A DNA stretch of 25,620 nt from a virus, in the IMG/VR virus record IMGVR_UViG_3300032333_000054, positions 1 to 25,620 of that record. The stretch is one strand, 5' to 3'. Both the position numbers and the translations under genes were made by a program. Under the pieces are notes generated by a model, which was not told where the DNA came from, made no database searches, and was given only the letters and a program-made list of their open reading frames with translations. Shown here piece by piece: positions 1 through 23,523 of this stretch; the first letter of the stretch is position 1, and the number at the start of each line of letters is the position of its first letter.

Positions 1-82
1 CTTCTCTATCACCCTCCATTTGAACTTGTGCAAATTTTGCACATGTTGCTTCTTTAAGATAATCTACTGCTGTTCGTTTCAT
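1..82 (-). CDS. Small leftward protein, partial (C-terminus outside window)
   Basis: A leftward reading frame starts at an ATG at 82-80 and runs off the left edge, with 27 codons visible. It begins MKRTAVDYLKEATCAKF. The opening resembles the MKxTAVxWL-type starts of small phage proteins that I remember from marine phages, but I cannot assign a function. It overlaps the end of the leftward 51-residue frame (54-209) in a different frame, as expected of a compact phage operon. There is no Shine-Dalgarno sequence; the leader is A/T-rich. Confidence 0.5.
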   Translation of the reverse strand, partial: MKRTAVDYLKEATCAKFAQVQMEGDRE

Positions 83-209
83 TTTTAGTTGTTTTAATTG
101 GATTGTTATTTAGTTTATTTAATCGTTGTTCAATGTAACTCTCGAATGATGGATTCGAATAGTACGTTTGTCGTACAAATTGCTTACGTGCTGTGTTATT
201 ACTCTTCAT
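54..209 (-). CDS. Small basic hypothetical protein, 51 aa
   Basis: This leftward frame starts with ATG at 209-207 and stops with TAA at 56-54. It begins MKSNNTARKQFVRQTYYSNP and is rich in Asn, Lys, Arg and Thr, with no membrane segment. Its start overlaps the end of the 30-residue frame (199-291) by 11 bases and its end overlaps the next leftward frame, so the three look translationally coupled. I recognise no family. The case for it being real rests on the overlapping arrangement and the promoter-like motif at 317-348; a chance frame is possible. Confidence 0.4.
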   Translation of the reverse strand: MKSNNTARKQFVRQTYYSNPSFESYIEQRLNKLNNNPIKTTKNETNSSRLS

Positions 210-291
210 CTTTCGCTATTTCAAATGTTTCATCTTGTTGTAGCATTGCTCTAAACAATTCAATCTCTTGGTAGTACTCTTCTAGTGTCAT
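199..291 (-). CDS. Very small acidic hypothetical protein, 30 aa
   Basis: The frame starts at ATG 291-289 and stops at TAA 201-199. It begins MTLEEYYQEIELFRAMLQQD and ends in an acidic tail, and could form a single amphipathic helix. It is the first frame after the leftward 32-base motif at 317-348. The gap between motif and ATG is the same as for the 104-residue gene behind the second motif copy, which is the best evidence that this tiny frame is translated. The leader is A-rich without a Shine-Dalgarno sequence. Function unknown. Confidence 0.45.
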   Translation of the reverse strand: MTLEEYYQEIELFRAMLQQDETFEIAKDEE

Positions 292-316
292 ATTATATTT
301 GTTTTAGTTACATTTG

Positions 317-348
317 TATTATCGTTTGTTCGTCGTATTCACACTGTA
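317..348 (-). promoter_or_regulatory. 32-base leftward promoter-like motif, copy 1
   Basis: Read leftward, it starts TACAGTGTGAATACGA, has 8 further bases and ends GATAATA. It matches copy 2 (791-822) at 29 of 32 positions, including 23 identical bases in a row, and copy 3 (976-1007) at 24 of 32. Its downstream edge lies 26 bases before the ATG at 291. The GATAATA end looks like a -10 element. I infer a phage promoter or operator; no factor can be named. Confidence 0.6.
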
Positions 349-410
349 AATGTATAGCATTCGCAGAAGTGCAATGATTACAGCGTGTTGAGGTTACCCC
401 TGTGGGATCT

Positions 411-430
411 AAAACCTACTCCGCAGTAGG
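411..430 (-). terminator. Candidate leftward intrinsic terminator after the 104-aa gene
   Basis: Read leftward, CCTACT-GCGG-AGTAGG forms a perfect 6-bp stem with a 4-base loop, followed directly by TTTT. It lies 20 bases past the stop codon of the leftward 104-residue gene and before motif copy 1, giving the order gene, terminator, promoter, gene. The T tract is short, so termination may be weak. Confidence 0.5.
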
Positions 431-450
431 CTCTAGATTTTCGATTGTTG

Positions 451-765
451 CTAGATGTCTAACATTAGCCGGCATATCGGTTGATTGTGACAGTACTCAC
501 GTTTGATCCAACATGGCATGATTGATAGTTTAGGTAACATCACATTCAATACTTCGTCGTGATTGTAAGTAACTCGTTGATTCTTGTTGTTAACAAAGGT
601 TATGATTTGGTTGCGACCTAACCACGCTTTGCGGACCACAAAGTTTGCTCGTTGTATTGGCGGATAGATTAGAGCCAATTGTTCAGGTGTTAAGGCAGCG
701 ATCGCCTCGGCTAATAATTCTTTACTTGATTTTGTCACTTCGATTTGTTCTTTTACTTTTTTCAT
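451..765 (-). CDS. Hypothetical protein, 104 aa
   Basis: This is the largest leftward gene in the window. It begins MKKVKEQIEVTKSSKELLAE; residues 1-35 look helical and charged, and the rest mixes beta and basic stretches (FVVRKAWLGRNQIITFV). The C-terminal part has three cysteines in a short span (MPCWIKREYCHNQPIC), but the spacing does not fit a standard zinc finger. I recognise no family. The start at 765 has an A-rich leader 26 bases from motif copy 2, and a terminator-like hairpin follows the stop. Its position in a separately controlled leftward arm suggests an early or host-interaction role, which is inference. Confidence 0.65.
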   Translation of the reverse strand: MKKVKEQIEVTKSSKELLAEAIAALTPEQLALIYPPIQRANFVVRKAWLGRNQIITFVNNKNQRVTYNHDEVLNVMLPKLSIMPCWIKREYCHNQPICRLMLDI

Positions 766-790
766 AACTCTTATATTTTATTTACACTTA

Positions 791-822
791 TATTATCGTT
801 TGTTCGTCGTATTTATTCTGTA
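791..822 (-). promoter_or_regulatory. 32-base leftward promoter-like motif, copy 2
   Basis: This is the second copy of the motif described at 317-348. Read leftward it ends in GATAATA, 26 bases before the ATG of the 104-residue gene at 765, exactly the spacing of copy 1. It abuts the stop codon of the 36-residue gene (823-933), so it fills the whole space between the two genes. Confidence 0.6.
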
Positions 823-933
823 TTACCATTGTGCTTCAAGAGGACATAAACGTTGACCACCAAATAAGGTTGTACTTATTGATCCATGAACATAACTAAT
901 TCTAATCACCACTAATCTACTAAATCTTTTCAT
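823..933 (-). CDS. Very small basic hypothetical protein, 36 aa
   Basis: The frame starts at ATG 933-931 and stops at TAA 825-823, beginning MKRFSRLVVIRISYVHGSIS. The leader is A/T-rich (AAATAAATAAAG before the ATG), as for other genes here. It sits between motif copies 3 and 2 with no wasted bases, which favours a real gene. It has no recognised domain; the first 20 residues are basic and beta-prone. It could be a chance frame in a regulatory stretch. Confidence 0.4.
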   Translation of the reverse strand: MKRFSRLVVIRISYVHGSISTTLFGGQRLCPLEAQW

Positions 934-975
934 AACTTTATTTATTTAATTATTATTACTTTTTAACTTCATATA

Positions 976-1007
976 TATTATCAATAGAGTCTCGTATTCA
1001 CTCTGTA
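976..1007 (-). promoter_or_regulatory. 32-base leftward promoter-like motif, copy 3
   Basis: This more diverged copy matches copy 1 at 24 of 32 positions. Read leftward, TACAGAGTGAATACGA and GATAATA are kept at the same spacing while the 8-base middle differs. That pattern fits two bound boxes separated by a spacer. It lies 43 bases before the ATG at 933. Confidence 0.5.
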
Positions 1008-1300
1008 TGCTATACACGCTACGCGTTGCTCCGCGCGTTATGGCAAGTGCGATAGATCACGCGTATCGAATCAAATCATGTACACACATAACATAATACT
1101 ATGTAACGCACAACAACACAACCAGCGCACCAATACACATACATACACGATGCATACGTACATACAAAGCCTGGACCATTGCATAAAACCAAACCAAAAG
1201 GCAAAACCTTTTCAAAAAACCATATAAACAGCAGGGGGCTGGGTAAAAACAAATCAATTTCCTTTTTCAAAAAGTAGAATCAAAACTAGTATATAACCCC

Positions 1301-1378
1301 TTACTTCTGAATATCTAATACTATTTTTTAATCATCATGCATCATTACTTCTAAATATCTGATACAATTTTTTCAATC
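1301..1378. repeat. Imperfect direct repeat, two units of 33-34 bases
   Basis: Unit 1 (1301-1333) and unit 2 (1345-1378) both start TTACTTCT, continue AATATCT after one variable base, and end in a T run plus AATC. They agree at about 30 of 34 positions with one insertion, and the units start 44 bases apart. They lie in the non-coding strand switch, so they may be binding sites (iterons or operators). This is inferred from the repeat only. Confidence 0.6.
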
Positions 1379-1493
1379 CCTTGGGATTTATTTATTAAAT
1401 AGTAGTATGACATTAGCTAGTTATAATATATAGTAGTAGGCTAACGTCGCATTTTGATCGTGTAAAATTTTGGTATAATACGTGAGTATAAAG

Positions 1494-1508
1494 AGTATAA
1501 TAAAATCT
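1494..1508 (+). promoter_or_regulatory. Candidate rightward promoter/leader element, copy A
   Basis: The 15 bases AGTATAATAAAATCT occur here and again at 8907-8921 before the chaperonin gene. Here they end 6 bases before the ATG at 1515. A second TATAAT box (GGTATAATACG) lies just upstream at 1472-1482. TATAAT is not the usual Bacteroidota -7 box, so a phage-specific promoter is possible. A chance match in A/T-rich leader cannot be excluded. Confidence 0.35.
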
Positions 1509-1514
1509 ATTTAT

Positions 1515-1760
1515 ATGGCACAGAAATTATCTCCAGAGGCTGCTAAAAAGAAAGCTGCACGTGATTTGGCTTATGCTAAAACTCCTGATCGTCGGGCTAA
1601 GAAAGCCGATGCGCAGAGAAAGCGTCGCGCGGATCCTAAGGGTGCTAATGGAAAAGATTGGGACCATAAGAATCAGAGGTGGGAATCTCCTGCTCAGAAT
1701 AGGGGTAATGATGGTTTGGGTACTAAGAAAGAAAGTGGTAAAAAATATAAAACAAAATAG
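1515..1760 (+). CDS. Small basic conserved phage protein, 81 aa
   Basis: The protein begins MAQKLSPEAAKKKAARDLAY. It has a highly charged Lys/Arg/Ala-rich helical N-terminal half (residues 1-50) and a C-terminal part with DHKNQRW, NRGNDG and GTKKE. The DHK...NRGNDG arrangement resembles small proteins I remember from marine phages and loosely recalls HNH-type DHK...N motifs, but the HNH catalytic histidines cannot be identified, so I make no nuclease call. I chose ATG 1515 over an in-frame GTG 33 bases upstream because MAQ starts a clean helical protein after an A/T-rich leader. It is the first rightward gene after the strand switch. Nucleic-acid binding is plausible from its charge. Confidence 0.65.
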   Translation: MAQKLSPEAAKKKAARDLAYAKTPDRRAKKADAQRKRRADPKGANGKDWDHKNQRWESPAQNRGNDGLGTKKESGKKYKTK

Positions 1761-1872
1761 TTTGAAGACTAATAAAAAAAGAGTTGAACCCACGGCACCA
1801 AAGTCTGGTGTTATGAGTAATAAATCGGGGCAAACCCCACCTAAAGAAAATAAATTAATAAAACAAAACACA

Positions 1873-2130
1873 ATGAAAAAATCACCGGCAAAACAAAAAG
1901 CAGGCCTTGGAGGCATTAAAGTAAAAGTTAAAGCAACAGTTACACCAAAAACAACAGTTGCGCCAAAAGCAGGAATAGCGGGAGCTAATGCACCTACTAA
2001 AATGAAAGATGTTTCTAAGAAGACTGCTTACAATATTAAAGAAGCAAGCAACCAAAAATTAACTGCTACCGCAAGAAAGCATTATGCAGAGAATGCACAA
2101 GCTGCAATGAAAAACAAAAAGAAAAAATAA
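1873..2130 (+). CDS. Lys/Ala-rich small basic protein, 85 aa
   Basis: The protein starts MKKSPAKQKAGLGGIKVKVK and continues with repeated KATVTP / TTVAPKAG stretches, then a helical segment with TARKHYAENAQAAM and a KNKKKK tail. It is very basic and low in complexity; no known domain is visible. It could bind nucleic acid or be a minor virion component. ATG 1873 is preferred because the leader before it is A-rich like other starts here; an in-frame ATG at 1813 would add 20 residues. The 112 bases between this gene and the previous one hold two short hairpins but no other gene that I can support. Confidence 0.6.
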   Translation: MKKSPAKQKAGLGGIKVKVKATVTPKTTVAPKAGIAGANAPTKMKDVSKKTAYNIKEASNQKLTATARKHYAENAQAAMKNKKKK

Positions 2131-2145
2131 TAACAAACATAAAAG

Positions 2146-2892
2146 ATGGCGATAATATATAGTTATCCTAAGAATACGGACATCCTTGTCACGGATACTA
2201 TAGTTGGTACATCGACAAGGGTTGTTAACGGTAAAAGGAAGAATGTAACTAAGAACTTTGAGATAGGGGCTATTGCTACGTTTTTTAACGAGAATAGCTC
2301 CATCGCAATTGCAGGGCAGAATAATTTCTTTTTCCAAAATAATATTGCTCCTGGTAGAAAACCGGGGTCGATTAGCTTTGTAAGCGGAAGCGGTGCAAAT
2401 ACACCATTCAATAATATAACGGTATTAAGAATAAGTAAGTTTGCAACATCAGGGAATGTTATAATTGATTTTATAAATACATTGGTGAATGAGGCTATTA
2501 TTATAGCGCAGACTGATGATTTAAATAATTTTGGTATATATAAGTTCAACAGTATAACAGCCGTTTCAGGTAATCCTAACTTTTATGATATTGCTATAGA
2601 AGCTGTTGCTGCGCATGGGAATATCTTAGAAGATAAATTTTACGGTATTGCGGTTTATCCTGGTTTTGTTAATCCTGATATAGATCCGGGAGCTGGTGAC
2701 AAGAATTTTGTTTTCGCGCAAGCTGTTGCCGCATCGGTATGGGATGTACAACATGATTTAGATAAGTACCCTTCGGTGTCTATTGTTAATGATAATAATA
2801 TGCAAGTTTTTGGAGAGGTAGAATATATAGACACTAACAATTTAACAATAACTTTTGCTGCCGCTTTTTCCGGTAAAGCATATATGAACTAA
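2146..2892 (+). CDS. Tail fibre/appendage protein, 248 aa
   Basis: This is a probable virion appendage protein. Residues 1-25 (MAIIYSYPKNTDILVTDTIV) form a short N-terminal module that recurs at the start of the 323-residue protein at 6544-7515, so it probably attaches both to the same part of the virion. The middle is beta-rich and Asn-rich. The last 60 residues (FVFAQAVAASVWDVQHDLDK, YPSVSIV, ending FAAAFSGKAYMN) resemble the small C-terminal beta-sandwich that ends many phage tail fibres. It is followed after 2 bases by the next fibre gene. The specific receptor or adhesive role is inferred from context. Confidence 0.75.
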   Translation: MAIIYSYPKNTDILVTDTIVGTSTRVVNGKRKNVTKNFEIGAIATFFNENSSIAIAGQNNFFFQNNIAPGRKPGSISFVSGSGANTPFNNITVLRISKFATSGNVIIDFINTLVNEAIIIAQTDDLNNFGIYKFNSITAVSGNPNFYDIAIEAVAAHGNILEDKFYGIAVYPGFVNPDIDPGAGDKNFVFAQAVAASVWDVQHDLDKYPSVSIVNDNNMQVFGEVEYIDTNNLTITFAAAFSGKAYMN

Positions 2893-2894
2893 CT

Positions 2895-4016
2895 ATGGCA
2901 ATACAATATTTAAGTAGTATAAATTTATCTACTAATCAATTACAATATGCGGTTATACAGCCAGAGACAAGCAACCCAACGCTATATACGGCGGTTGAGG
3001 GTCAAATCTATTATAACTCAGTAAATAGAAAACTTAAACTCTACACTGGATCCGTCGGAGGATGGGTTGATGTTGGTAGCGATGGAGACATTACGGAAAT
3101 ACAGACTACCACATCAAATCAATTAACCATTACCAACGGTACTGGGCCAATTCCCTCATTAGCAATTGTTACTGCATCGGTAACTAATGGATCTACTTCT
3201 TTAGCTACAGGTGATCAGATTTACGATTTTGTAACTGGGCAAGGTTATTTGACTACAGCAGTAACCTCTGTTTCTACAGGGTTTGGACTAGTAGGTGGAC
3301 CTATTACATCAACCGGCTCAATCGCTTTGGACTATGCTGGCGCAGACAACTTTATTATAATTGCAACTACCGCAACCGCTTCTGCGGATGATTCTATAGT
3401 GTTTAACGATGATGCTGATGGTAATGTTAAGAAAACTTCCTTTGGATCTATTCCAATGGCCGCGTTAACATTAGTCAAGGATTATATTGATGCATCAACA
3501 ACTAGCGCTTTAGTTTATCAAGGAGGATATAACGCTGCAACAAATACACCAGATTTGGATGTATCACCATCATCTGCTATTAAAACAGGATGGACGTATG
3601 CTGTAACCGCCGACGGTACATTCTTTACTGAGCAGGTTAGAATTGGTGATTTATTAATTGCTAATGTGAATGCTCCAACAACTTTAGCTGATTGGACAAC
3701 ATTACAAAATAACATTGATTTAGCAACATACACTGAGCCAGGTATTGCGTCATTCAGTTCTTCTGATTTCGTTGTAACTGCTGGAGCTGTAAGTTTAGCT
3801 ACGCCGGCATCTACTTCTTATGCAACTACGATCACTGTTACTTCTACTATAACGCATAGTTTAAATACTAAGGATGTAAATGTACAATTATATGATACAG
3901 TTACTTTCGAAACTATATTTGCGGATGTAACTAGACCAACAGTAAATACTGTTACGGTAACATTTGCTACAGCACCTACAAACCCAATTAGAGTATTGGT
4001 TACTAAAGTAGGATAA
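2895..4016 (+). CDS. Tail fibre protein, 373 aa
   Basis: The N-terminus (MAIQYLSSINLSTNQLQYAV, then GQIYYNSVNRKLKLYTG and GGWVDVG) is an attachment module often seen in Bacteroidota phage fibres. The centre is Ser/Thr/Gly-rich and beta-prone, with ITNGTGP and STGFGLVGGPITSTGSIALD stretches. The last 60 residues (THSLNTKDVNVQLYD, RPTVNTVTVTF, IRVLVTKVG) match the small beta-sandwich ending common in phage fibres, where H-L/N-T/S-K/Y-D-V and a final V-L-V strand recur. It follows the 248-residue fibre gene after 2 bases and precedes the large repeat fibre, so the three are probably co-translated. A collagen-like or enzymatic domain is not seen. Confidence 0.75.
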   Translation: MAIQYLSSINLSTNQLQYAVIQPETSNPTLYTAVEGQIYYNSVNRKLKLYTGSVGGWVDVGSDGDITEIQTTTSNQLTITNGTGPIPSLAIVTASVTNGSTSLATGDQIYDFVTGQGYLTTAVTSVSTGFGLVGGPITSTGSIALDYAGADNFIIIATTATASADDSIVFNDDADGNVKKTSFGSIPMAALTLVKDYIDASTTSALVYQGGYNAATNTPDLDVSPSSAIKTGWTYAVTADGTFFTEQVRIGDLLIANVNAPTTLADWTTLQNNIDLATYTEPGIASFSSSDFVVTAGAVSLATPASTSYATTITVTSTITHSLNTKDVNVQLYDTVTFETIFADVTRPTVNTVTVTFATAPTNPIRVLVTKVG

Positions 4017-8937: not shown

Positions 8938-10503
8938 ATGGCAGATGCAATTGTAAAAAACCTTAATTTTGGTGAAGACGCAAGATCTAAGGTATTTGAA
9001 GGTATTACAAAGCTAACAAGAGCAGTTAGTTCAACGCTTGGGGCTAGCGGTAAATGTGTAATACTTGAGGATGGAGCAGGTGGACCTGTAATAACAAAAG
9101 ATGGGGTAACTGTAGCGGATAGTATTATACTATTGGATCCTGTAGAGAATATGGGTGCTACTCTTTTAAAAGAAGCAGCTCGTAAAACTGTAAAAGAAGC
9201 AGGAGATGGAACAACGACCGCTACGGTATTAGCTCATTCTATTTTAACTGAAGCTTATAAAGTTTCAGATACAATAAGTCCTAGAGATTTAAAAGAAGGA
9301 ATTGAAAGAGCATCTATGGATGTTATTAATTATTTAGAGAATAATTCAATCCCAGTCTCAGGCAATATGATTGATCACGTAGCTACAATTTCCGCTAATA
9401 ACGATCACGAGTTAGGAAAGATAATTGCAGACGCTTTTAGGGAAGCTGGAGACAACGGTGTAGTTATGATGGAAACATCTACAGCAAATAATACCGAGAT
9501 TGAAATAATTGATGGTATTCAATACGATAAAGGATTAGTTAATTCACATTTTGTTACTAATCCAGTTAAAAAAACAGCAGAGCTAGAAAATGCTTATGTA
9601 TTGTTAATTGAATCACCAGTTGATAACATTAGACAGATACAAAGTGTTTTAGAATTTGTAATGAAAGAAAGAAAACCTTTATTAATTGTAGCAGATATGG
9701 AACAGCCAGTAATATCTGTTTTAGCTATGAACAAAGTAAAAGGTAACCTTAAAGTTAATGTAATTAATGCGCCAACTTATGGTGTTAATAAGAAAGATAC
9801 ATTAGCTGATTTAGCATTGCTTACAAAAGCAAAAGTGATTAATGAGGATCTGGGTGATGATATGGATTTAATTTCTGTAGAACATTTAGGGCATTGTACT
9901 AAAGTAGTAACAGATGATATTGAAACGATTATTCAGATTAATGATGAGTCTAATGAGGTATCTGCTTTAATTGATGAAATAAAAAGTCAATTAGCTGAAA
10001 CAAAAAATCCAGGCGATGTTATTAGACTAGAAAAAAGACTAGCTAGATTATCCGGTAAAGTTGTAGTAGTAAAGGTGGGTGCTAATTCAGAAGTTGAATT
10101 AAAAGAAAAAGCTGATAGAGTTGAAGATGCTATCTGTGCAACTAAAGCCGCTATAAAAGAAGGTATTGTTCCTGGAGGAGGCATTGCGTTATTAGATGCT
10201 GCTGAAGAATTAAGGAATGAGAATAAAGGAGAAGAAGTTTTATTTAAAGCCATTAGAGCTCCTTTTGAAACAATATTAATGAACGCTGGTATTTTTAAGA
10301 ATCCAATGCTAAACCGAAAAAAGGGGTACGGATTAAATGTTGTTACTAATGAAACCGTTGATATGGTTAAATTTGGGATTGTTGATCCTTTATTAGTAAC
10401 GAAGAGCGCATTAAGTAACGCTGTGTCGGTTGCTACAACCATTTTATCTACTGATTGTGTAATTAATAATTTAAGAGTAGGAGATGAAAGCAATAGGAAA
10501 TAA
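8938..10503 (+). CDS. groEL: Phage-encoded GroEL-type chaperonin, 521 aa
   Basis: This is a full-length group I chaperonin subunit that should form a ring-shaped ATP-driven folding chamber. Key elements are in place: ITKDGVTVA (residues 52-60, Asp55), the nucleotide loop GDGTTTATVLA (89-99, with the Asp that corresponds to Asp87 of E. coli GroEL), the catalytic Asp397 in RVEDA (corresponding to Asp398) and VPGGGIALL (411-419). The apical region (about 190-375) is recognisable but diverged. The usual Gly-Gly-Met tail is missing; the protein ends VGDESNRK. It is followed, with a 20-base overlap, by a GroES-like gene. Its setting between lysis and head genes suggests that it folds phage virion proteins. 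It could work alone or mix with host subunits. Confidence 0.95.
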   Translation: MADAIVKNLNFGEDARSKVFEGITKLTRAVSSTLGASGKCVILEDGAGGPVITKDGVTVADSIILLDPVENMGATLLKEAARKTVKEAGDGTTTATVLAHSILTEAYKVSDTISPRDLKEGIERASMDVINYLENNSIPVSGNMIDHVATISANNDHELGKIIADAFREAGDNGVVMMETSTANNTEIEIIDGIQYDKGLVNSHFVTNPVKKTAELENAYVLLIESPVDNIRQIQSVLEFVMKERKPLLIVADMEQPVISVLAMNKVKGNLKVNVINAPTYGVNKKDTLADLALLTKAKVINEDLGDDMDLISVEHLGHCTKVVTDDIETIIQINDESNEVSALIDEIKSQLAETKNPGDVIRLEKRLARLSGKVVVVKVGANSEVELKEKADRVEDAICATKAAIKEGIVPGGGIALLDAAEELRNENKGEEVLFKAIRAPFETILMNAGIFKNPMLNRKKGYGLNVVTNETVDMVKFGIVDPLLVTKSALSNAVSVATTILSTDCVINNLRVGDESNRK

Positions 10504-13763: not shown

Positions 13764-13772
13764 TAGATGGAC

Positions 13773-13845
13773 AGCAGGTGGGAGGTAAGGTATCTCGCGG
13801 GTCTCATAAGCCCGTTCAAATTGGTTCGATTCCAGTACGTTGCTA
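13773..13845 (+). tRNA. tRNA-Met-like (anticodon CAT)
   Basis: A cloverleaf can be drawn. The D arm is GAG...CTC with GG in the loop. The anticodon arm is CGGGT-CTCATAA-GCCCG, giving anticodon CAT. The variable loop is TTCAA and the T arm is ATTGG-TTCGATT-CCAGT. The acceptor stem AGCAGGT pairs with ACGTTGCT only if one base is bulged, and it includes a G-T pair. No CCA is encoded. The CAT anticodon could also mean tRNA-Ile read after lysidine modification. Confidence 0.7.
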
Positions 13846-14963: not shown

Positions 14964-15186
14964 GGAGCTAATTAAAGTTGCTGAAGAAAAAATTGTTGAC
15001 AGCGGAGACGATATATCTGCTGATAGACTAAAGAATGCGGCAGCTACAAAAAAATTAGCCATCTTTGATGCTCTTGAAATTCTAAATAGAATAGAAGAGG
15101 AAAGAAGAATGCTTGATGCAGAAGAAGCCGGAGAATCTTCTCCAGGTAAATCATTTAGAGGATTTGCAGAAGGGAGGAGTAAGTGA
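14908..15186 (+). CDS. Probable small terminase subunit, 92 aa
   Basis: The protein is helical and charged: MNIKETKLSIIQAGQKAVEE, then SADRLKNAAATKKLAIFDAL, EILNRIEEERRMLDAEEAGE and a C-terminal GFAEGRSK. It sits immediately before the large terminase gene, overlapping it by one base (TGATG), the usual place of the small terminase subunit that recognises phage DNA and feeds it to TerL. The A-A-A-T-K-K-L-A-I-F-D-A core and the F-A-E-x-R tail are patterns I recall from genes in this position. A helix-turn-helix is not clearly seen, so the call rests mainly on position. The start overlaps the tandem GroES-like gene by 56 bases. Confidence 0.55.
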   Translation: MNIKETKLSIIQAGQKAVEELIKVAEEKIVDSGDDISADRLKNAAATKKLAIFDALEILNRIEEERRMLDAEEAGESSPGKSFRGFAEGRSK

Positions 15187-17414
15187 TGTACGAACAAACT
15201 CTTGTAACAGTTTTACCTGATCATATTAAACCTTCAACCATAAGCAAACTTAATAAAGCTAAAAAATGGGAGTATGGATATAACAAAGAACACGATGTAG
15301 TTGTTATAAGCCGTACCGGGAAAATTGGTGAAGTGTATGAAATACAAAATCTAAAGATTGCATTACCTTTTATAGAAGATGCTTATAAGCGATCTAATAA
15401 AAAAGAGGAACAATATTGGGAACAAAAAGCATACCCTAAAGAGCTCGAAAGAATAAAGAATAGATTTGATTGGGATAAATATCCTGACAAGTTTAAAGAG
15501 CTGTGGTATGACTTTATAGATAAGGAATTTATATATAGAGAACAAGGTTTCTCATTTTACAATAGCGGAGTACCAACGTATATAACTGGTACGCATTACA
15601 TGTACTTACAATGGTCAAAGATCGATGTAGGTGCCGCAGATTTCCGTGAATCAAATAGATTATTCTTTATATTTTGGGAAGCTTGTAAAGCAGATAATAG
15701 ATGTTACGGTATGTGCTATTTAAAGAATAGACGTTCTGGATTTTCATTTATGTCATCTGCAGAGCTTGTAAATCAAGCAACTATAAGTTCTGATGCTCGT
15801 TTTGGTATATTATCAAAATCAGGAGCAGATGCTAAAAAGATGTTTACAGATAAGGTTGTGCCAATATCAATCAATTATCCATTCTTTTTTAAGCCTATCC
15901 AAGATGGTATGGATAGACCAAAAACAGAGTTAGCTTATAGAGTACCTGCTTCTAAACTTACAAGAAAGAAATTAGATACACAAGAACAAGTTGAAGAACT
16001 TGATGGATTAGATACAACAATTGACTGGAAGAATACTGGAGACAATAGTTATGATGGTGAAAAATTAAAACTATTAGTACACGACGAAAGTGGTAAATGG
16101 GAAAGACCAGACAATATATTAAATAACTGGCGCGTTACTAAGACGTGCGTAAGGTTGGGTAGCAAGATTGTCGGTAAGTGTATGATGGGATCAACATCAA
16201 ACGCATTAGACAAAGGAGGAGAAAACTTTAAAAGATTATATTACGATTCAGATGTAACAAAACGAAATCGTAATGGCCAAACAGCTTCAGGTTTATATTC
16301 TTTATTTATTCCAATGGAATGGAATTATGAAGGTTTTATAGACTTATATGGTATGCCGGTATTTGATACGCCGGACAAACCTGTATTAGGAGCTGATAAA
16401 AATTGGATTGATTATGGGGTTATTGAGCATTGGCAAAATGAAGTTGATGGATTAAAAAATAATCAAGATGCTCTTAATGAGTACTTTAGACAATTTCCAA
16501 GAACTGAAAACCATGCATTCAGAGATGAAGCTAAACAATCTTTGTTCAATCTTACTAAGATATATGAACAAATAGATTACAATGAAGACCTAAGAAATAC
16601 CAATGTAGTAACAAAAGGGAACTTTCAATGGGAGAATGGTATACAAGATTCTAAGGTAATATTTATGCCAAATAAAGATGGCAGATTTTTAATTTCTTGG
16701 GTACCACCTAAAAATCTACAAAACCGAGTGATTATAAGAAATGGGATGAAATATCCAGGCAATGAACATTGTGGTGCATTTGGATGCGATAGTTACGATA
16801 TATCAGGAACGGTAGACGAAAGTAGAGGATCAAAAGGAGCATTACACGGGCTTACTAAATTCTCTATGGAAGATGTACCGCCTAATCATTTTTTCTTAGA
16901 ATATATTGCTAGGCCACAAACAGCTGAGATATTTTTTGAAGATGTATTAATGGCATTAGTGTTTTATGGTATGCCAATACTTGCAGAGAATAACAAGCCA
17001 AGATTATTATATTATTTAAAAAGAAGAGGTTACAGAGGATATTCTATGAATAGACCTGATAAAGTTTGGAATAAATTATCACCAGCAGAAAAAGAGATTG
17101 GTGGTATTCCATCATCTTCACAAGATATATTACAAGCTCACGCAGCAGCTATTGAAAGTTATATAGATAAAAACGTGGGTCTTTTAGAATATGGATATGG
17201 TAATATGTATTTCCAAAGAACTTTAAACGATTGGTCGAGATTTAATATAAATAATAGAACAAAACACGATGCAACAATTAGCAGTGGATTAGCTATTATG
17301 GCATGTAACAAACATTCTTATACACCAATATTTGATACGCCAAAAGAAAAGGTATCATTAGGATTTAAAAAATACAACAACGAAGGATATAGTTCAAAAA
17401 TAATAAGTAAATGA
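15186..17414 (+). CDS. terL: Terminase large subunit, 742 aa
   Basis: This is the ATPase and nuclease of the DNA-packaging motor. Its length of about 740 residues matches crAss-like TerL. The ATPase half has a Walker A-position segment NRRSGFSFMS (about residue 181), a clear Walker B KLLVHDESGKW (Asp300, Glu301) and a coupling motif GSTSNALDKGG (about 335). The nuclease half has CDSYD (Asp535), EIFFED (about 581-586) and HDATISSGLA (Asp695), the three acidic positions of the RNase H-type fold. The Walker A segment lacks the usual lysine. I start at ATG 15186; a GTG one codon earlier is possible. It ends overlapping the portal gene by ATGA. Confidence 0.92.
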   Translation: MYEQTLVTVLPDHIKPSTISKLNKAKKWEYGYNKEHDVVVISRTGKIGEVYEIQNLKIALPFIEDAYKRSNKKEEQYWEQKAYPKELERIKNRFDWDKYPDKFKELWYDFIDKEFIYREQGFSFYNSGVPTYITGTHYMYLQWSKIDVGAADFRESNRLFFIFWEACKADNRCYGMCYLKNRRSGFSFMSSAELVNQATISSDARFGILSKSGADAKKMFTDKVVPISINYPFFFKPIQDGMDRPKTELAYRVPASKLTRKKLDTQEQVEELDGLDTTIDWKNTGDNSYDGEKLKLLVHDESGKWERPDNILNNWRVTKTCVRLGSKIVGKCMMGSTSNALDKGGENFKRLYYDSDVTKRNRNGQTASGLYSLFIPMEWNYEGFIDLYGMPVFDTPDKPVLGADKNWIDYGVIEHWQNEVDGLKNNQDALNEYFRQFPRTENHAFRDEAKQSLFNLTKIYEQIDYNEDLRNTNVVTKGNFQWENGIQDSKVIFMPNKDGRFLISWVPPKNLQNRVIIRNGMKYPGNEHCGAFGCDSYDISGTVDESRGSKGALHGLTKFSMEDVPPNHFFLEYIARPQTAEIFFEDVLMALVFYGMPILAENNKPRLLYYLKRRGYRGYSMNRPDKVWNKLSPAEKEIGGIPSSSQDILQAHAAAIESYIDKNVGLLEYGYGNMYFQRTLNDWSRFNINNRTKHDATISSGLAIMACNKHSYTPIFDTPKEKVSLGFKKYNNEGYSSKIISK

Positions 17415-19852
17415 TTTATAGCAACAATAATAGTTCTTTCCCAAGTCAGGTAGTACCGGACTCAGAAAAGCAAAGTTACGAATACGGTGCTGCTGTCGGT
17501 AGAGCTATCGAAAATGAATGGTTTAGAGGTGATCGCGTTACAAGTGGCGGTGGCGACAATCAAGCTGGCACTGCTGATAGATGGGGATCAAACTGGAGAA
17601 ACTTTCATAGATTAAGATTATATGCAAGAGGTGAACAGTCCGTTCAAAAATATAAAGATGAATTGTCTATTAATGGCGATTTGTCTTATTTGAATTTAGA
17701 TTGGAAACCTGTTCCTGTAATACCAAAATTTGTTGATATTGTAGTAAACGGAATATCAAGCAAAAATTATGATATTAAAGCGTATGCTCAAGATCCAGAT
17801 TCTATAAAAAAGAAAACAAATTATGCTTCTAGTATATTAGAAGATATGATGGCTAAAGAATTGTTGGATGAAATCAAAGGATCATTAGGCGCAAACCTTT
17901 ATAATTCTTTGGATCCAGATAATTTGCCATCAGATAAAGAAGAACTTGAAATAAGACTTCAATTAAGTTATAAGCAAGAAGTAGAAATTGCAGAAGAGGA
18001 AGTTATAAATCAAATATTAGATAGAAACAAATACTCTTTAATAAACAAAAGATTAAATTACGACTTAGTTGTTTTAGGTATTGCATGTACAAAAACATCG
18101 TGGAATAAATCAAATGGCGTTACAATTGAATATGTAGACCCTGCTAATATTGTTTATTCTTACACAGAGGATCCAAACTTTGAAGACCTATATTACGTAG
18201 GAGAAGTTAGATCGGTTACATTAGAAGAGGTTAAAAAGCAATATCCTCACTTAACTAATGAACAATTAAAAAGAATAGAAAAATATCCTGGTGATACAAA
18301 CTATACTAGAAACTTTTATGGTCAAGATTATGACACACAAAATGTTCAAGTATTGTATTTTGAATATAAAACATATTCTAATCAGGTATTTAAAATTAAA
18401 CAAACAGATTTAGGTTTAGAAAAAGCATTAGAGAAAACTGATGAATTTAATCCACCTGAAAATGATAACTTTAGTAGAGTATCAAGAAGTATAGAGGTTA
18501 TATATCAAGGAGCTAAAATATTAGGGCATGAAGAAATGCTTGAGTGGAAGTTAGCTGAGAATATGACAAGGCCTTATGCAGATACCACTAAAGTATTAAT
18601 GAATTACGCCATTGTAGCGCCAAGAATGTATAAAGGTAGAATTGAGTCGCTAGTAAGTAGAATTACAGGTTTTGCGGATATGATTCAATTAACACATTTA
18701 AAAATACAACAAGTGTTAGCAAGGTTAGTGCCAGACGGGGTATTCGTCGATGTTGACGGTCTAGCTGAAGTCGATCTTGGTAATGGTACAAATTATAATG
18801 CTGCTGAAGCACTTAATATGTATTTCCAAACTGGTAGTATTGTTGGTAGATCTATGACACAAGATGGAGATATGAATAGAGCTAAGGTGCCAATTCAAGA
18901 ACTACAAACATCTTCTGGTGGCGCAAAAATTCAATCATTAATCCAAACGTACCAATATTATTTACAAATGATACGTGATGTTACTGGATTAAATGAAGCA
19001 AGAGATGGTAGTATGCCAGATAAAGATGCTTTAGTAGGCTTACAAAAATTAGCAGCTAATGCTTCGAATACAGCTACACGACATATATTACAATCAAGTT
19101 TGTATTTAACATTAAGAATTTGTGAGAATATATCAAGAAGAGTAGCCGATTCATTAAACTTCCCGTTAACAGCTAACTCTTTAATGCAAAGTATATCAGT
19201 GGCGTCGGTTGAAACATTAAGAGAACTAGAGAATCTTAACTTACATGACTTTGGTATATACTTAGAGTTGGAACCAGACGAAGAAGAAAAAGCAATGTTA
19301 GAACAAAATATTCAAGTTGCTTTACAAACAGGTGGTATTGATTTAGAGGATGCCATTGATTTACGTCAAATAAAAAATATTAAGTTAGCTAATCAATCTC
19401 TTAAATATAAGAGAAAGAAAAAGATGGAGCGTGATCAAGCAGTTCAACAAGCTAATATTCAAGCGCAAGCACAAGCAAATGCTCAATTAGCGGAAGAAAC
19501 AGCAATGTCAGAAGTTAATAAGCAACAAGCTTTAACCGAACAAAAGATACAATTAGAGCAAGTTAAGCATAACTTAGAGTTGCAAAAAATGCAACAAGAA
19601 GCGGATCTTAAGAAGCAATTAATGCTTGAAGAATTTAATTATAGTTTAGAGCTAGCAAAAATGCAGGTTAGTCAACAAGATGCTAAATTAAATATGCTTG
19701 AAGATCGTAAAGACAAAAGAACAAAATTACAAGCCACACAACAATCTGAATTAATAGAGCAAAGACAAAACAATACATTACCAAAAGATTTTGAATCTGC
19801 TGGATTTGACAATCTTAGTGGATTTGGTTTAGAACAATTCGAACCAAAGTAA
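17411..19852 (+). CDS. Portal protein, 813 aa
   Basis: This is the dodecameric channel at the head vertex through which DNA is packed. The position directly after TerL, the length of about 800 and sequence features support this. NWRNFHRLRLYARGEQSVQK, then PKFVDIVVNGISSKNYDI (about residues 103-120), is the typical start of crAss-like portals. A long alpha/beta core follows (MTRPYADTTKVLMNYAIVAP), with a stem-like helix (ESLVSRITGFADMIQLTHLK) and DVTGLNEARDG. The last 150 residues are a Gln/Lys/Glu-rich coiled coil (about 665-770), which would form the barrel in the capsid. There is no peptidase or Mu F-type fusion. It starts with an ATGA overlap and is followed by a 31-base gap. Confidence 0.88.
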   Translation: MIYSNNNSSFPSQVVPDSEKQSYEYGAAVGRAIENEWFRGDRVTSGGGDNQAGTADRWGSNWRNFHRLRLYARGEQSVQKYKDELSINGDLSYLNLDWKPVPVIPKFVDIVVNGISSKNYDIKAYAQDPDSIKKKTNYASSILEDMMAKELLDEIKGSLGANLYNSLDPDNLPSDKEELEIRLQLSYKQEVEIAEEEVINQILDRNKYSLINKRLNYDLVVLGIACTKTSWNKSNGVTIEYVDPANIVYSYTEDPNFEDLYYVGEVRSVTLEEVKKQYPHLTNEQLKRIEKYPGDTNYTRNFYGQDYDTQNVQVLYFEYKTYSNQVFKIKQTDLGLEKALEKTDEFNPPENDNFSRVSRSIEVIYQGAKILGHEEMLEWKLAENMTRPYADTTKVLMNYAIVAPRMYKGRIESLVSRITGFADMIQLTHLKIQQVLARLVPDGVFVDVDGLAEVDLGNGTNYNAAEALNMYFQTGSIVGRSMTQDGDMNRAKVPIQELQTSSGGAKIQSLIQTYQYYLQMIRDVTGLNEARDGSMPDKDALVGLQKLAANASNTATRHILQSSLYLTLRICENISRRVADSLNFPLTANSLMQSISVASVETLRELENLNLHDFGIYLELEPDEEEKAMLEQNIQVALQTGGIDLEDAIDLRQIKNIKLANQSLKYKRKKKMERDQAVQQANIQAQAQANAQLAEETAMSEVNKQQALTEQKIQLEQVKHNLELQKMQQEADLKKQLMLEEFNYSLELAKMQVSQQDAKLNMLEDRKDKRTKLQATQQSELIEQRQNNTLPKDFESAGFDNLSGFGLEQFEPK

Positions 19853-21073: not shown

Positions 21074-22555
21074 ATGAGTGCAGTAACTCCTACTTTTGGG
21101 TCTATTAAGCCGTCTCAGAAACAACAGGCATTAGATACCAATTATTTAAACTTTACGGATCCGACTAACGCGGATTTCGTATCATTTGCTCAACAATACT
21201 TACCAGAAATCTACGAAAATGAAGTAGAGCGTTATGGAAACAGAACTTTATCTGGATTCTTACGTATGGTTGGTGCTGAAATGCCAATGTCTTCTGACCA
21301 GGTTATTTGGTCTGAACAAAACAGATTACACGTTGCTTATGACGGTGTTGATGTAGTTAGTGCAGCAGGTAATACTTTATTGATTCCTTCTGACTTGACT
21401 CCTACCGTTGCTACTGATTACGTTGCAAACGTTATCTCTAAGCACCAAACAATTGTTATTATGAATCCTGCAACAGGATTAGAAGTTAAAGCCGTAGTTA
21501 CAGCTACTGGAGCTCTTGATACTTCTTCTGATGCTGCAAATGGCGCTTTAACAGTTGCTCCTTATACTGCTGCTACTTTAGCTGCTGCTGGATTTACAGA
21601 CGGTATGGACAACTTGAAAATCTTCGTTTATGGTTCTGAGTATGCAAAAGGATCTCAAATTCCAAATGACGAGTATGCTAGCATCACTCCTTCATTTACA
21701 CAATTCAACAACTCTCCAATCATTATCCGTAACAAATATGTAGTTAATGGATCTGACACTGCTCAAATTGGTTGGGTTAATATTACTACTGAAGACGGAG
21801 CTGACGGATTCTACTGGTATTTAAAAGCTGAATCAGAAACTCGTTTACGTTTTGAAGATTACTTAGAAATGTCTGTAGTTGAGGGTGAATTAGCTGCTAC
21901 TGGATCTGCTGCTGCTACAGCTGGTAAAAAAGGTACGCAAGGTTTATTTGCTGCTGTTAATGAAAGAGGTAACGTAGTTGATAACTTTACAGCTGCTTCT
22001 GGATTAGCTGATTTTGATACTATCTTGAAAAACTTAGATACTCAAGGAGCTATTGAAGAAAATATGTTATTCTTAAACCGTCAATTATCTTTGGATTTTG
22101 ATGATATGTTAGCGTCTTTATCTTCTGGAGCACAAGGTGGTGTTGCTTACGGTTTGTTCGAAAACTCTGAAGAAATGGCACTTAACTTAGGTTTCTCAGG
22201 TTTCCGTAGAGGATCTTACGATTTCTACAAAACTGACTGGAAATACTTAAACGATGCTTCTACTCGTGGAGCTATGACAGGCGTTGGTAGTTCAATTCAA
22301 GGAATCTTGGTTCCTGCTGGAACTTCAACTGTATATGACCAAATTTTAGGTACTAATATCCGTCGTCCATTCTTACACGTTCGTTATAGAGCTTCACAAG
22401 CTGATGACCGTAGAATGAAATCTTGGGTAACAGGATCTGTTGGAGGAGCTTATACTTCTGACTTAGATGCAATGGAGGTACACTTCTTATCTGAAAGATG
22501 TTTATGTGTGCAAGGTGCTAACAACTTTGTATTGTTCACTGCTTCTGAAGCATAA
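21074..22555 (+). CDS. Major capsid protein, 493 aa
   Basis: This is the shell protein of the head, probably of HK97 fold. It begins MSAVTPTFGSIKPSQKQQAL, then PTNADFVSFAQQYLPEIYEN, and has ERYGNRTLSGFLRMVGAEMP and a C-terminal part with IRRPFLHVRYRASQADDRRM and DLDAMEVHFLSERCLCVQGA. The length of about 490 and position after portal and scaffold match crAss-like major capsid proteins. Codon use supports it as the most highly expressed gene: CGT is used for 12 of 19 arginines, against 4 of 36 in the portal gene, which mostly uses AGA. A strong hairpin follows the stop codon. I see no processing site. Confidence 0.88.
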   Translation: MSAVTPTFGSIKPSQKQQALDTNYLNFTDPTNADFVSFAQQYLPEIYENEVERYGNRTLSGFLRMVGAEMPMSSDQVIWSEQNRLHVAYDGVDVVSAAGNTLLIPSDLTPTVATDYVANVISKHQTIVIMNPATGLEVKAVVTATGALDTSSDAANGALTVAPYTAATLAAAGFTDGMDNLKIFVYGSEYAKGSQIPNDEYASITPSFTQFNNSPIIIRNKYVVNGSDTAQIGWVNITTEDGADGFYWYLKAESETRLRFEDYLEMSVVEGELAATGSAAATAGKKGTQGLFAAVNERGNVVDNFTAASGLADFDTILKNLDTQGAIEENMLFLNRQLSLDFDDMLASLSSGAQGGVAYGLFENSEEMALNLGFSGFRRGSYDFYKTDWKYLNDASTRGAMTGVGSSIQGILVPAGTSTVYDQILGTNIRRPFLHVRYRASQADDRRMKSWVTGSVGGAYTSDLDAMEVHFLSERCLCVQGANNFVLFTASEA

Positions 22556-22572
22556 TCTTTATAGGGAAAAAT

Positions 22573-22600
22573 TTACCCTCGATAACACTTTCGAGGGTAA
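22573..22600 (+). terminator. 10-bp hairpin after the capsid gene, possible partial terminator or mRNA stabiliser
   Basis: TTACCCTCGA (22573-22582) pairs perfectly with TCGAGGGTAA (22591-22600) around an 8-base loop, 18 bases after the capsid stop. No U tract follows directly, so it may protect the mRNA end or be a weak terminator. Neighbouring AGGG and TACCCT segments can form competing hairpins (see findings). Confidence 0.6.
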
Positions 22601-22638
22601 ACTTACCCTTCAAAACAAATTTTTAATTATATTATATT

Positions 22639-23523
22639 ATGGCAACAGCAAAAAAACCGGTAGCTAAGGCTACTAAAGAATTTATAGAAGACACATTCGT
22701 TCAACCTGAGGATTCGTTCATCGAAAATGAACAACCAGAATATGTTGAACAACCAAAAGCAAAAGAAGAACCTGAAGTTGCAAAATCAACTTGGGAAATT
22801 AAAGATAGAATTTATAAATTAAAAGGAAACATAAGTCCTTTAACATTCTCTTTGCAAACTAGACACTCAAGAAGATTTCCGTTGTTATGGTTTGATCCAG
22901 TAACAAAAGAACAAAGAGAATTAAGATATGCAACAAATCAAAACTCACCGTTTGTAGATGAGCAAAAAGGGGAGGTTACATTAGGGCATGTAATGATTAA
23001 AAACGGGATTTTAGTTGTCCCTAAAGAAAAACAAAACTTACAAAAATTATTATCCTTATATCATCCATCACTTAATAAAAAGTATGTTGAGTTCGATCCT
23101 ATTATAAAAGCGGTTGACGAATTAGATGATATGGAAATTCAATTAGAAGCAATGAATGCTGCAAGAGAAATGGATGTTGATCAAGCAGAAGCTATTTTAA
23201 GAGTAGAGATTGGATCTAAAGTAAACAAAATGACGTCTAAAGAAATTAAACGTGATTTAATGTTGTTTGCAAGAAGTAATCCTGAATTATTTATTGACTT
23301 AGCTAATGATGAAAATGTACAACTTCGCAATATAGCTATTAAAGCTACAGAAGAAGGCATTATTAAATTAACTCAAGATCAAAGAACTTTCTTATGGGCA
23401 TCTAACAATAGAAAATTAATGACAGTACCATTTGATGAAAACCCGTACTCAGCTATGGCTGCTTTCTTCAAAACAGATGAAGGTATTGAAATCTTAAGAT
23501 CTATAGAAAAAAGATTAGACTAA
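22639..23523 (+). CDS. Head-associated hypothetical protein, 294 aa
   Basis: The protein begins MATAKKPVAKATKEFIEDTF with an acidic/basic disordered N-terminus (to about residue 50). It continues with KDRIYKLKGNISPLTFSLQT, RRFPLLWFDPVTKEQRELRY, GEVTLGHVMIKNGILVVPKE, and a mostly helical second half with MTSKEIKRDLMLFARSNPEL and ENPYSAMAAFFKTDEGIEIL. I recognise a recurring protein found directly behind the capsid gene in related phages but no named function. It could be a head decoration, head-completion or auxiliary capsid protein. It is bounded by hairpins on both sides, which suggests separate mRNA control. Confidence 0.7.
   Translation: MATAKKPVAKATKEFIEDTFVQPEDSFIENEQPEYVEQPKAKEEPEVAKSTWEIKDRIYKLKGNISPLTFSLQTRHSRRFPLLWFDPVTKEQRELRYATNQNSPFVDEQKGEVTLGHVMIKNGILVVPKEKQNLQKLLSLYHPSLNKKYVEFDPIIKAVDELDDMEIQLEAMNAAREMDVDQAEAILRVEIGSKVNKMTSKEIKRDLMLFARSNPELFIDLANDENVQLRNIAIKATEEGIIKLTQDQRTFLWASNNRKLMTVPFDENPYSAMAAFFKTDEGIEILRSIEKRLD

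Follow-up and report, generated by a model that had tools for sequence, protein, structure and literature searches.

The window analysed here is an entire IMG/VR record; at 25,620 bases, it probably represents just a part of a larger phage genome. A divergent intergenic region at about 1,010–1,510 has small leftward open reading frames (ORFs) on its left and rightward structural and packaging genes on its right (Table 1). The nearest named phages by portal and terminase, at moderate identity, are the unclassified podovirus MW202828 and Maribacter phage Panino, along with the Flavobacterium elemo phages and the Pachyviridae and Pervagoviridae of Cellulophaga and Tenacibaculum. Portal matches are below 60% identity in all 87 records, and those of the terminase are at 32–64% among the records listed. 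As regards membership of Pachyviridae or Elemovirus, a homologous portal and terminase are present, and the status of a sister clade only is suggested. This clade numbers at least 599 portal relatives and at least 481 sigma factor relatives in IMG/VR, and its hosts are probably Bacteroidota bacteria.

The pattern TACAG-N4-AATACGA-N9-GATAATA has three exact matches on the minus strand of the window, at 348–317 (copy 1), 822–791 (copy 2) and 1007–976 (copy 3). No further match occurs in the 25,620 bases even when up to three mismatches are allowed, and 100 dinucleotide shuffles of the window contain 0.01 matches on average. A preliminary description had placed all three leftward copies at exactly these positions, and the 23 consecutive identical bases that it reported for copies 1 and 2 (AATACGACGAACAAACGATAATA) are confirmed, as are the distances from copies 1 and 2 (26 bases) and copy 3 (43 bases) to an ATG (291, 765 and 933, respectively). 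The GTx that it assigned to block 1 is present in copies 1 and 3, but copy 2 has ATA instead. The 32-base motif is real, but its extent was underestimated: the repeat is 47 nt long and runs on into a conserved TGTAA(C) segment. The description of the downstream genes as tiny fails for copy 2, which is followed by a conserved ORF of 104 residues. In most of the relatives for which array sequence is available, a homologue of this ORF follows a copy of the motif, with 73–90% identity in near relatives by tblastn. The coding status of the 36-aa ORF after copy 3 is doubtful. Copy 3 is the first of the window array and adjoins the divergent region.

Table 1. Features of the 25,620-base window; promoter elements and transcription starts are predictions.
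Feature	Position	Strand	Remarks
30-aa ORF after copy 1	199..291	-	no homologue found
Predicted +1 of copy 1	311 (G)	-	20-nt leader to ATG at 291
Putative promoter, copy 1	317..348	-	block 1 (TACAG) 348-344; block 2 (AATACGA) 339-333; -10-like GATAAT 323-318
104-aa ORF after copy 2	451..765	-	tblastn homologues
Predicted +1 of copy 2	785 (G)	-	20-nt leader to ATG at 765
Putative promoter, copy 2	791..822	-	block 1 822-818; block 2 813-807; GATAAT 797-792
36-aa ORF after copy 3	823..933	-	no homologue found
Predicted +1 of copy 3	970 (G)	-	37 nt to ATG at 933
Putative promoter, copy 3	976..1007	-	block 1 1007-1003; block 2 998-992; GATAAT 982-977
Inverted repeat GACATTAGC...GGCTAACGTC	1409..1448		divergent intergenic region
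GroEL	8938-10503	+	rightward block, with virion proteins
tRNA-Met (CAT)	13772-13843
Terminase	15183-17414	+	rightward structural/packaging block
Portal protein	17411..19852	+	structural strand, opposite the motif; marker of the motif-bearing clade
Hairpin TTTACCCTCG...CGAGGGTAAA	22572-22602		between virion genes 21074-22555 and 22639-23523

The exact pattern occurs at 165 sites on 114 stretches of IMG/VR, with very few expected by chance. All 49 records that were searched whole contain it, with between 1 and 16 sites per record and almost all of them on a single strand; a reversed-pattern control gave no site in any record. The window-type portal is found in 47 of these 49 records at 55–88% identity, and the motif lies on the strand opposite the portal wherever the two could be placed. 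A position matrix obtained by iterative refinement detects 395 sites in 44 records (at most 16 per record), almost always on the strand that does not carry the structural genes, and its reversed form detects none. Recurrence upstream of other leftward genes had also been predicted, and the hundreds of sites indeed lie almost only on the early-gene strand, before small ORFs. Of the records picked by portal and not by motif, the three of at least 58 kb carry 8, 11 and 14 sites, and six portal-sharing outgroup phages contain no motif sites beyond a single match with three mismatches. Seven genomes that were retrieved show the sites arranged as an array, about 4–15 kb of tiny ORFs that runs into the replication genes; the genes annotated past the array in G004 encode sigma, Erf, exonuclease, primase-helicase, thymidylate synthase, MazG, Holliday resolvase and ribonucleotide reductase.

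The consensus of the matrix is TACA(A/G)ACTnAA(T/C)ACGA-N9-GATAATATAAATGTAACnAAA, and its spacing is rigid: block 2 and GATAATA are separated by N9 in 329 sites as against at most two at any other spacing, and blocks 1 and 2 by N4 in 275 sites as against at most one. A purine occupies position 37, which is 7 nt past GATAAT, in 391 of 395 sites (99%), and a pyrimidine-purine (YR) step leads into it in 342 of them (87%). This signature is the geometry of a predicted start site of the sigma70 type. When GATAAT is taken as -12 to -7, position 37 becomes +1, block 1 spans -37 to -33 and block 2 spans -28 to -22. The first ATG that opens a reasonable ORF lies most often 18–23 nt downstream of the predicted +1. 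There are also 23 ORFs that start exactly at +1, so their mRNAs would be leaderless. Flavobacteria normally have mRNAs with short leaders and a few with none, and the -7 box of their sigmaA promoters is TAnnTTTG (PMC9723704). The motif matrix does not fit this box, in agreement with the earlier statement that the boxes do not look like standard host -33/-7 boxes. Host-like TTG-N18-22-TAnnTTTG sites are slightly over expectation on the early strand, not at the arrays, and a k-mer search of the structural strand for a common late promoter found no shared box. We infer the start sites and an early/middle timing of transcription. An ATG followed immediately by a stop codon (consensus ATGTAA) lies over the predicted start in 149 of the 395 sites (index 35–40).

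A protein of the sigma70 family, about 250 residues long and with recognisable regions 2 and 4, is encoded in the early block of the clade phages. The protein of the relatives, not of the window fragment, matches PHROG 351 (E 7e-19) and, at cut-off, Pfam Sigma70_r2. Its best PDB sequence match is sigma28/FliA, profile matches are to SigA and FliA, and the predicted fold matches sigmaA (model pLDDT 73). The clade sigma thus resembles FliA and sigmaA in that its profile and predicted fold match regions 2–4. The -10 box of FliA promoters is GCCGATAA, which the clade -10 element GATAA resembles, whereas the upstream elements of the clade are unlike TAAAGTTT and their spacing is inflexible. The sigma gene is present in 38 of 49 motif records, including every record of at least 59 kb; those without it are all shorter than 56 kb and so are probably truncated. 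A sigma HMM matches all of the nine longer clade genomes to which it was applied and gives no match in W01–W05. The factor was not found in five of the six portal-sharing outgroup phages (elemoF, MW202828, phi38:1, phi13:2 and Panino), and Gundel_1 (W06) gives a single weak phrog_351 match (E 4.6e-5) confined to the C-terminal part. No tblastn match to the clade sigma was obtained among GenBank phage records. Because the 25.6-kb fragment ends before the sigma gene, the window's own phage would be expected to encode one by comparison with its relatives, of which the nearest with a sigma is G004 (portal 87%).

Upstream of sigma in loci from 80 of the at least 481 relatives, chosen without reference to the motif, there are 261 motif sites on the sigma strand; nine lie downstream and one on the opposite strand, and the control gives none. 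A motif site is present in 49 of 55 sigma loci with at least 5 kb of upstream sequence, and motif and sigma are present together in the clade and absent together in five of the six outgroup phages. Of the six exceptions, sigma loci that have 10 kb upstream and no matrix match, at least five carry variant alleles in the same frame. TCGAA replaces TACAA and AATACGA is kept in L344 and L395; CACGGACTT is found and block 2 lost in L347, L363 and L393, most clearly in L347 and L393; and L369 has TACAAACAAAA and has also lost block 2. GATAATA is kept at the same distance in all of these loci. The base directly before GATAATA, at -13, is largely fixed within each phage and differs among phages (MI z = 38.5), and the alleles at -13, block 1 and block 2 change fewer times along the sigma tree than shuffled labels do. 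Such clustering is the behaviour expected of a co-evolving phage-encoded reader, although shared descent alone could also produce it. Correlations between sigma residues and motif bases do not allow any single residue-base contact to be assigned; assignment of the -13 base to one sigma residue was rejected, as position 116 and others correlate with it and are confounded by ancestry.

The repeats very probably constitute an array of phage early/middle promoters, most likely read by the phage sigma factor together with the host core polymerase. Each promoter would consist of TACA(A/G) at -37 to -33, AATACGA at -28 to -22 and GATAAT(A) as a -10 element at -12 to -7, and transcription would start at the purine 7 nt after GATAAT, i.e., at 311, 785 and 970 in the window. 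By joining the host RNA polymerase core, the 250-residue factor would redirect host transcription. The sigma gene lies on the same strand past the array, so that its product would boost expression of the operon to which it belongs and of the replication genes. The first sigma molecules may be made from an as yet unrecognised host promoter or be delivered in the virion. The motif, its polarity, its fixed spacing, the start-like signature and the co-occurrence with sigma were all established computationally, and sigma as the reader is the likely interpretation of them. The spacing itself counts against a sigma factor to some extent, because sigma promoters usually tolerate 1-bp spacer changes and the clade motif does not.

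A bolder proposal, which we hold only tentatively and rather doubt, is that the sigma factor reads three elements without allowing any change of spacing, one of them 7 bp long and located within the spacer (-28 to -22), and that block 1, block 2 and -13 form phage-specific alleles changing along the sigma tree around a fixed GATAATA. If this were true, the clade would offer several hundred promoter-sigma pairs as a natural library displaying the evolution of sigma specificity, in a system possibly started by a virion-carried sigma.

The preliminary description had left the choice between a phage RNA polymerase and a phage regulator. The regulator, namely sigma, is favoured because no RNA polymerase has been detected and sigma co-occurs with the motif; it is unlikely that the sites are promoters of a phage-encoded polymerase, whether virion-carried as in N4 and crAss-like phages or T7-like. 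The rigid spacing would fit a single-protein reader, the clade has virion-block proteins of 2,000–2,900 residues with no assigned function, and the AATACGA-N9-G spacing equals that of the T7 promoter TAATACGACTCACTATAG. In the T7 promoter, however, the N9 stretch carries recognition and melting sequence, whereas it is unconserved in the clade motif. Since, in addition, the YR step lies 7 nt past GATAAT and not at its G, a T7-like start at the G of GATAATA is rejected. Pfam and PDB sequence searches of two giant virion proteins, and a PHROGs search of one of them, found no RNA polymerase match, and a search of 15 records for the T7-like polymerase family gave no match, its positive control being silent as well. 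These empty searches lower the probability of a polymerase.

It is improbable that the sites are operators at which a phage transcription factor acts over or next to ordinary host promoters. A candidate is a 206-aa helix-turn-helix (HTH) protein, whose gene directly precedes sigma, overlaps or adjoins it in most genomes and is found in 73 of 80 sigma loci; no significant PDB match was found for the predicted fold of this protein. Sigma factors rarely read sequence in the spacer, within which block 2 lies. The motif is asymmetric, though, the sites lack a TAnnTTTG box and the arrays are not enriched in host-like promoters. No HTH gene was found in four motif-bearing records, one of 68.9 kb (L344, L395, L397 and L385; G070–G073), and a different gene immediately precedes sigma in L344, L395 and L397. 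The HTH protein is thus apparently not required for the motif, and as an obligatory reader of block 1 it is rejected, two of these four records keeping a TACAA-like block 1.

Promoters of a host alternative sigma factor (ECF or sigma54) borrowed by the phage are very unlikely. Flavobacteria do have several alternative sigma factors (PMC9723704), but when 84,980 bacterial and archaeal species genomes were scanned, the extended motif turned up in just four contigs, all from metagenome bins, and it therefore does not look like a host regulon; moreover, the -13 letter varies from phage to phage. A motif-bearing contig binned as Gammaproteobacteria (L317, NYWC01000123.1) is probably a mis-binned phage contig. 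Replication-origin iterons, packaging sites or recombination repeats are the least credible reading, for although the copies are repeated, AT-rich and clustered in one part of the genome, they extend over many kb with a single copy for each small gene, almost all follow the orientation of the genes, their distances to start codons fall into fixed classes (peak +18 to +23) and they show a start-site signature.

Phage sigma factors with dedicated promoters are already known, and what appears to be new here is the rigid three-block architecture. The published cases that match best, the sigma factors phiEco32 gp36 and Salmonella phage 7-11 gp47, have dedicated phage promoters, six and eight of which are known, single-element in phiEco32 (tAATGTAtA) and bipartite in 7-11 (GTAAtg-16-aCTA); they drive middle and late genes, with starts 6–9 bp from the promoter element (PMC8948821). 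The proposed mechanism is alike in that a phage sigma-like subunit would redirect the host core polymerase to phage-specific promoters, with predicted starts within that same distance, and the clade differs from both phages in its three rigid blocks, its up to 16 copies, their location on the early/replication strand and its hundreds of uncultured members with diverged alleles. Bacteroidota sigmaA promoters, the presumed host transcription background, share short leaders without Shine-Dalgarno sequences, whereas no clade box matches their -7 TAnnTTTG (PMC9723704). The elemo phages, Pachyviridae and Pervagoviridae (Cellulophaga phi13:2 and phi38:1, Tenacibaculum Gundel_1) have a homologous portal and terminase and podoviral gene blocks, but no motif array and no sigma found apart from the weak partial match in Gundel_1. 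The N4/crAss-like virion RNA polymerase systems likewise have phage-specific early promoters and belong to phages of related lifestyle, and crAss-like phages also infect Bacteroidota; the clade differs in having a sigma and no detected polymerase. No paper on this motif or this sigma was found in the part of the literature covered.

The proposed system would be the early-gene control system of a very abundant uncultured phage clade, and its promoter and sigma variants, occurring in pairs, lend themselves to working out which bases are read by which sigma residues. The motif can serve as an annotation marker for very small early genes that escape gene callers and probably act against the host, and the system may be of use as an orthogonal promoter system for Bacteroidota.

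An Rfam search of window positions 1–3000 gave no match above gathering. The inverted repeat at 1409–1448 also occurs in G004, G013, G014, G026, G034, G045 and others, with the form GACATTAG(C/G)...GGCTAACGTC or GGCTATTGTC and one to three copies per genome. It is flanked by AAAAGTG/CACTTTT in several genomes and therefore looks like a bidirectional terminator. Hairpins related to that at 22572–22602 are found at the same place in relatives. Immediately 5' of many motif copies, in the window (1008–1015 and 351–358) and in many relatives, stands GTATAGCA or GCTATACA, which may belong to an upstream element or hairpin. A conserved segment free of ORFs, GCCTG(G/A)CTTTGAAATAGNGTCGGAAGAGTAGACTCCG, with one motif copy at its start in each genome concerned, was found in G004 (~60785), G013 (~35994), G014, G024 and G034 (loci L138–L148 and L289) and is a candidate small non-coding RNA.
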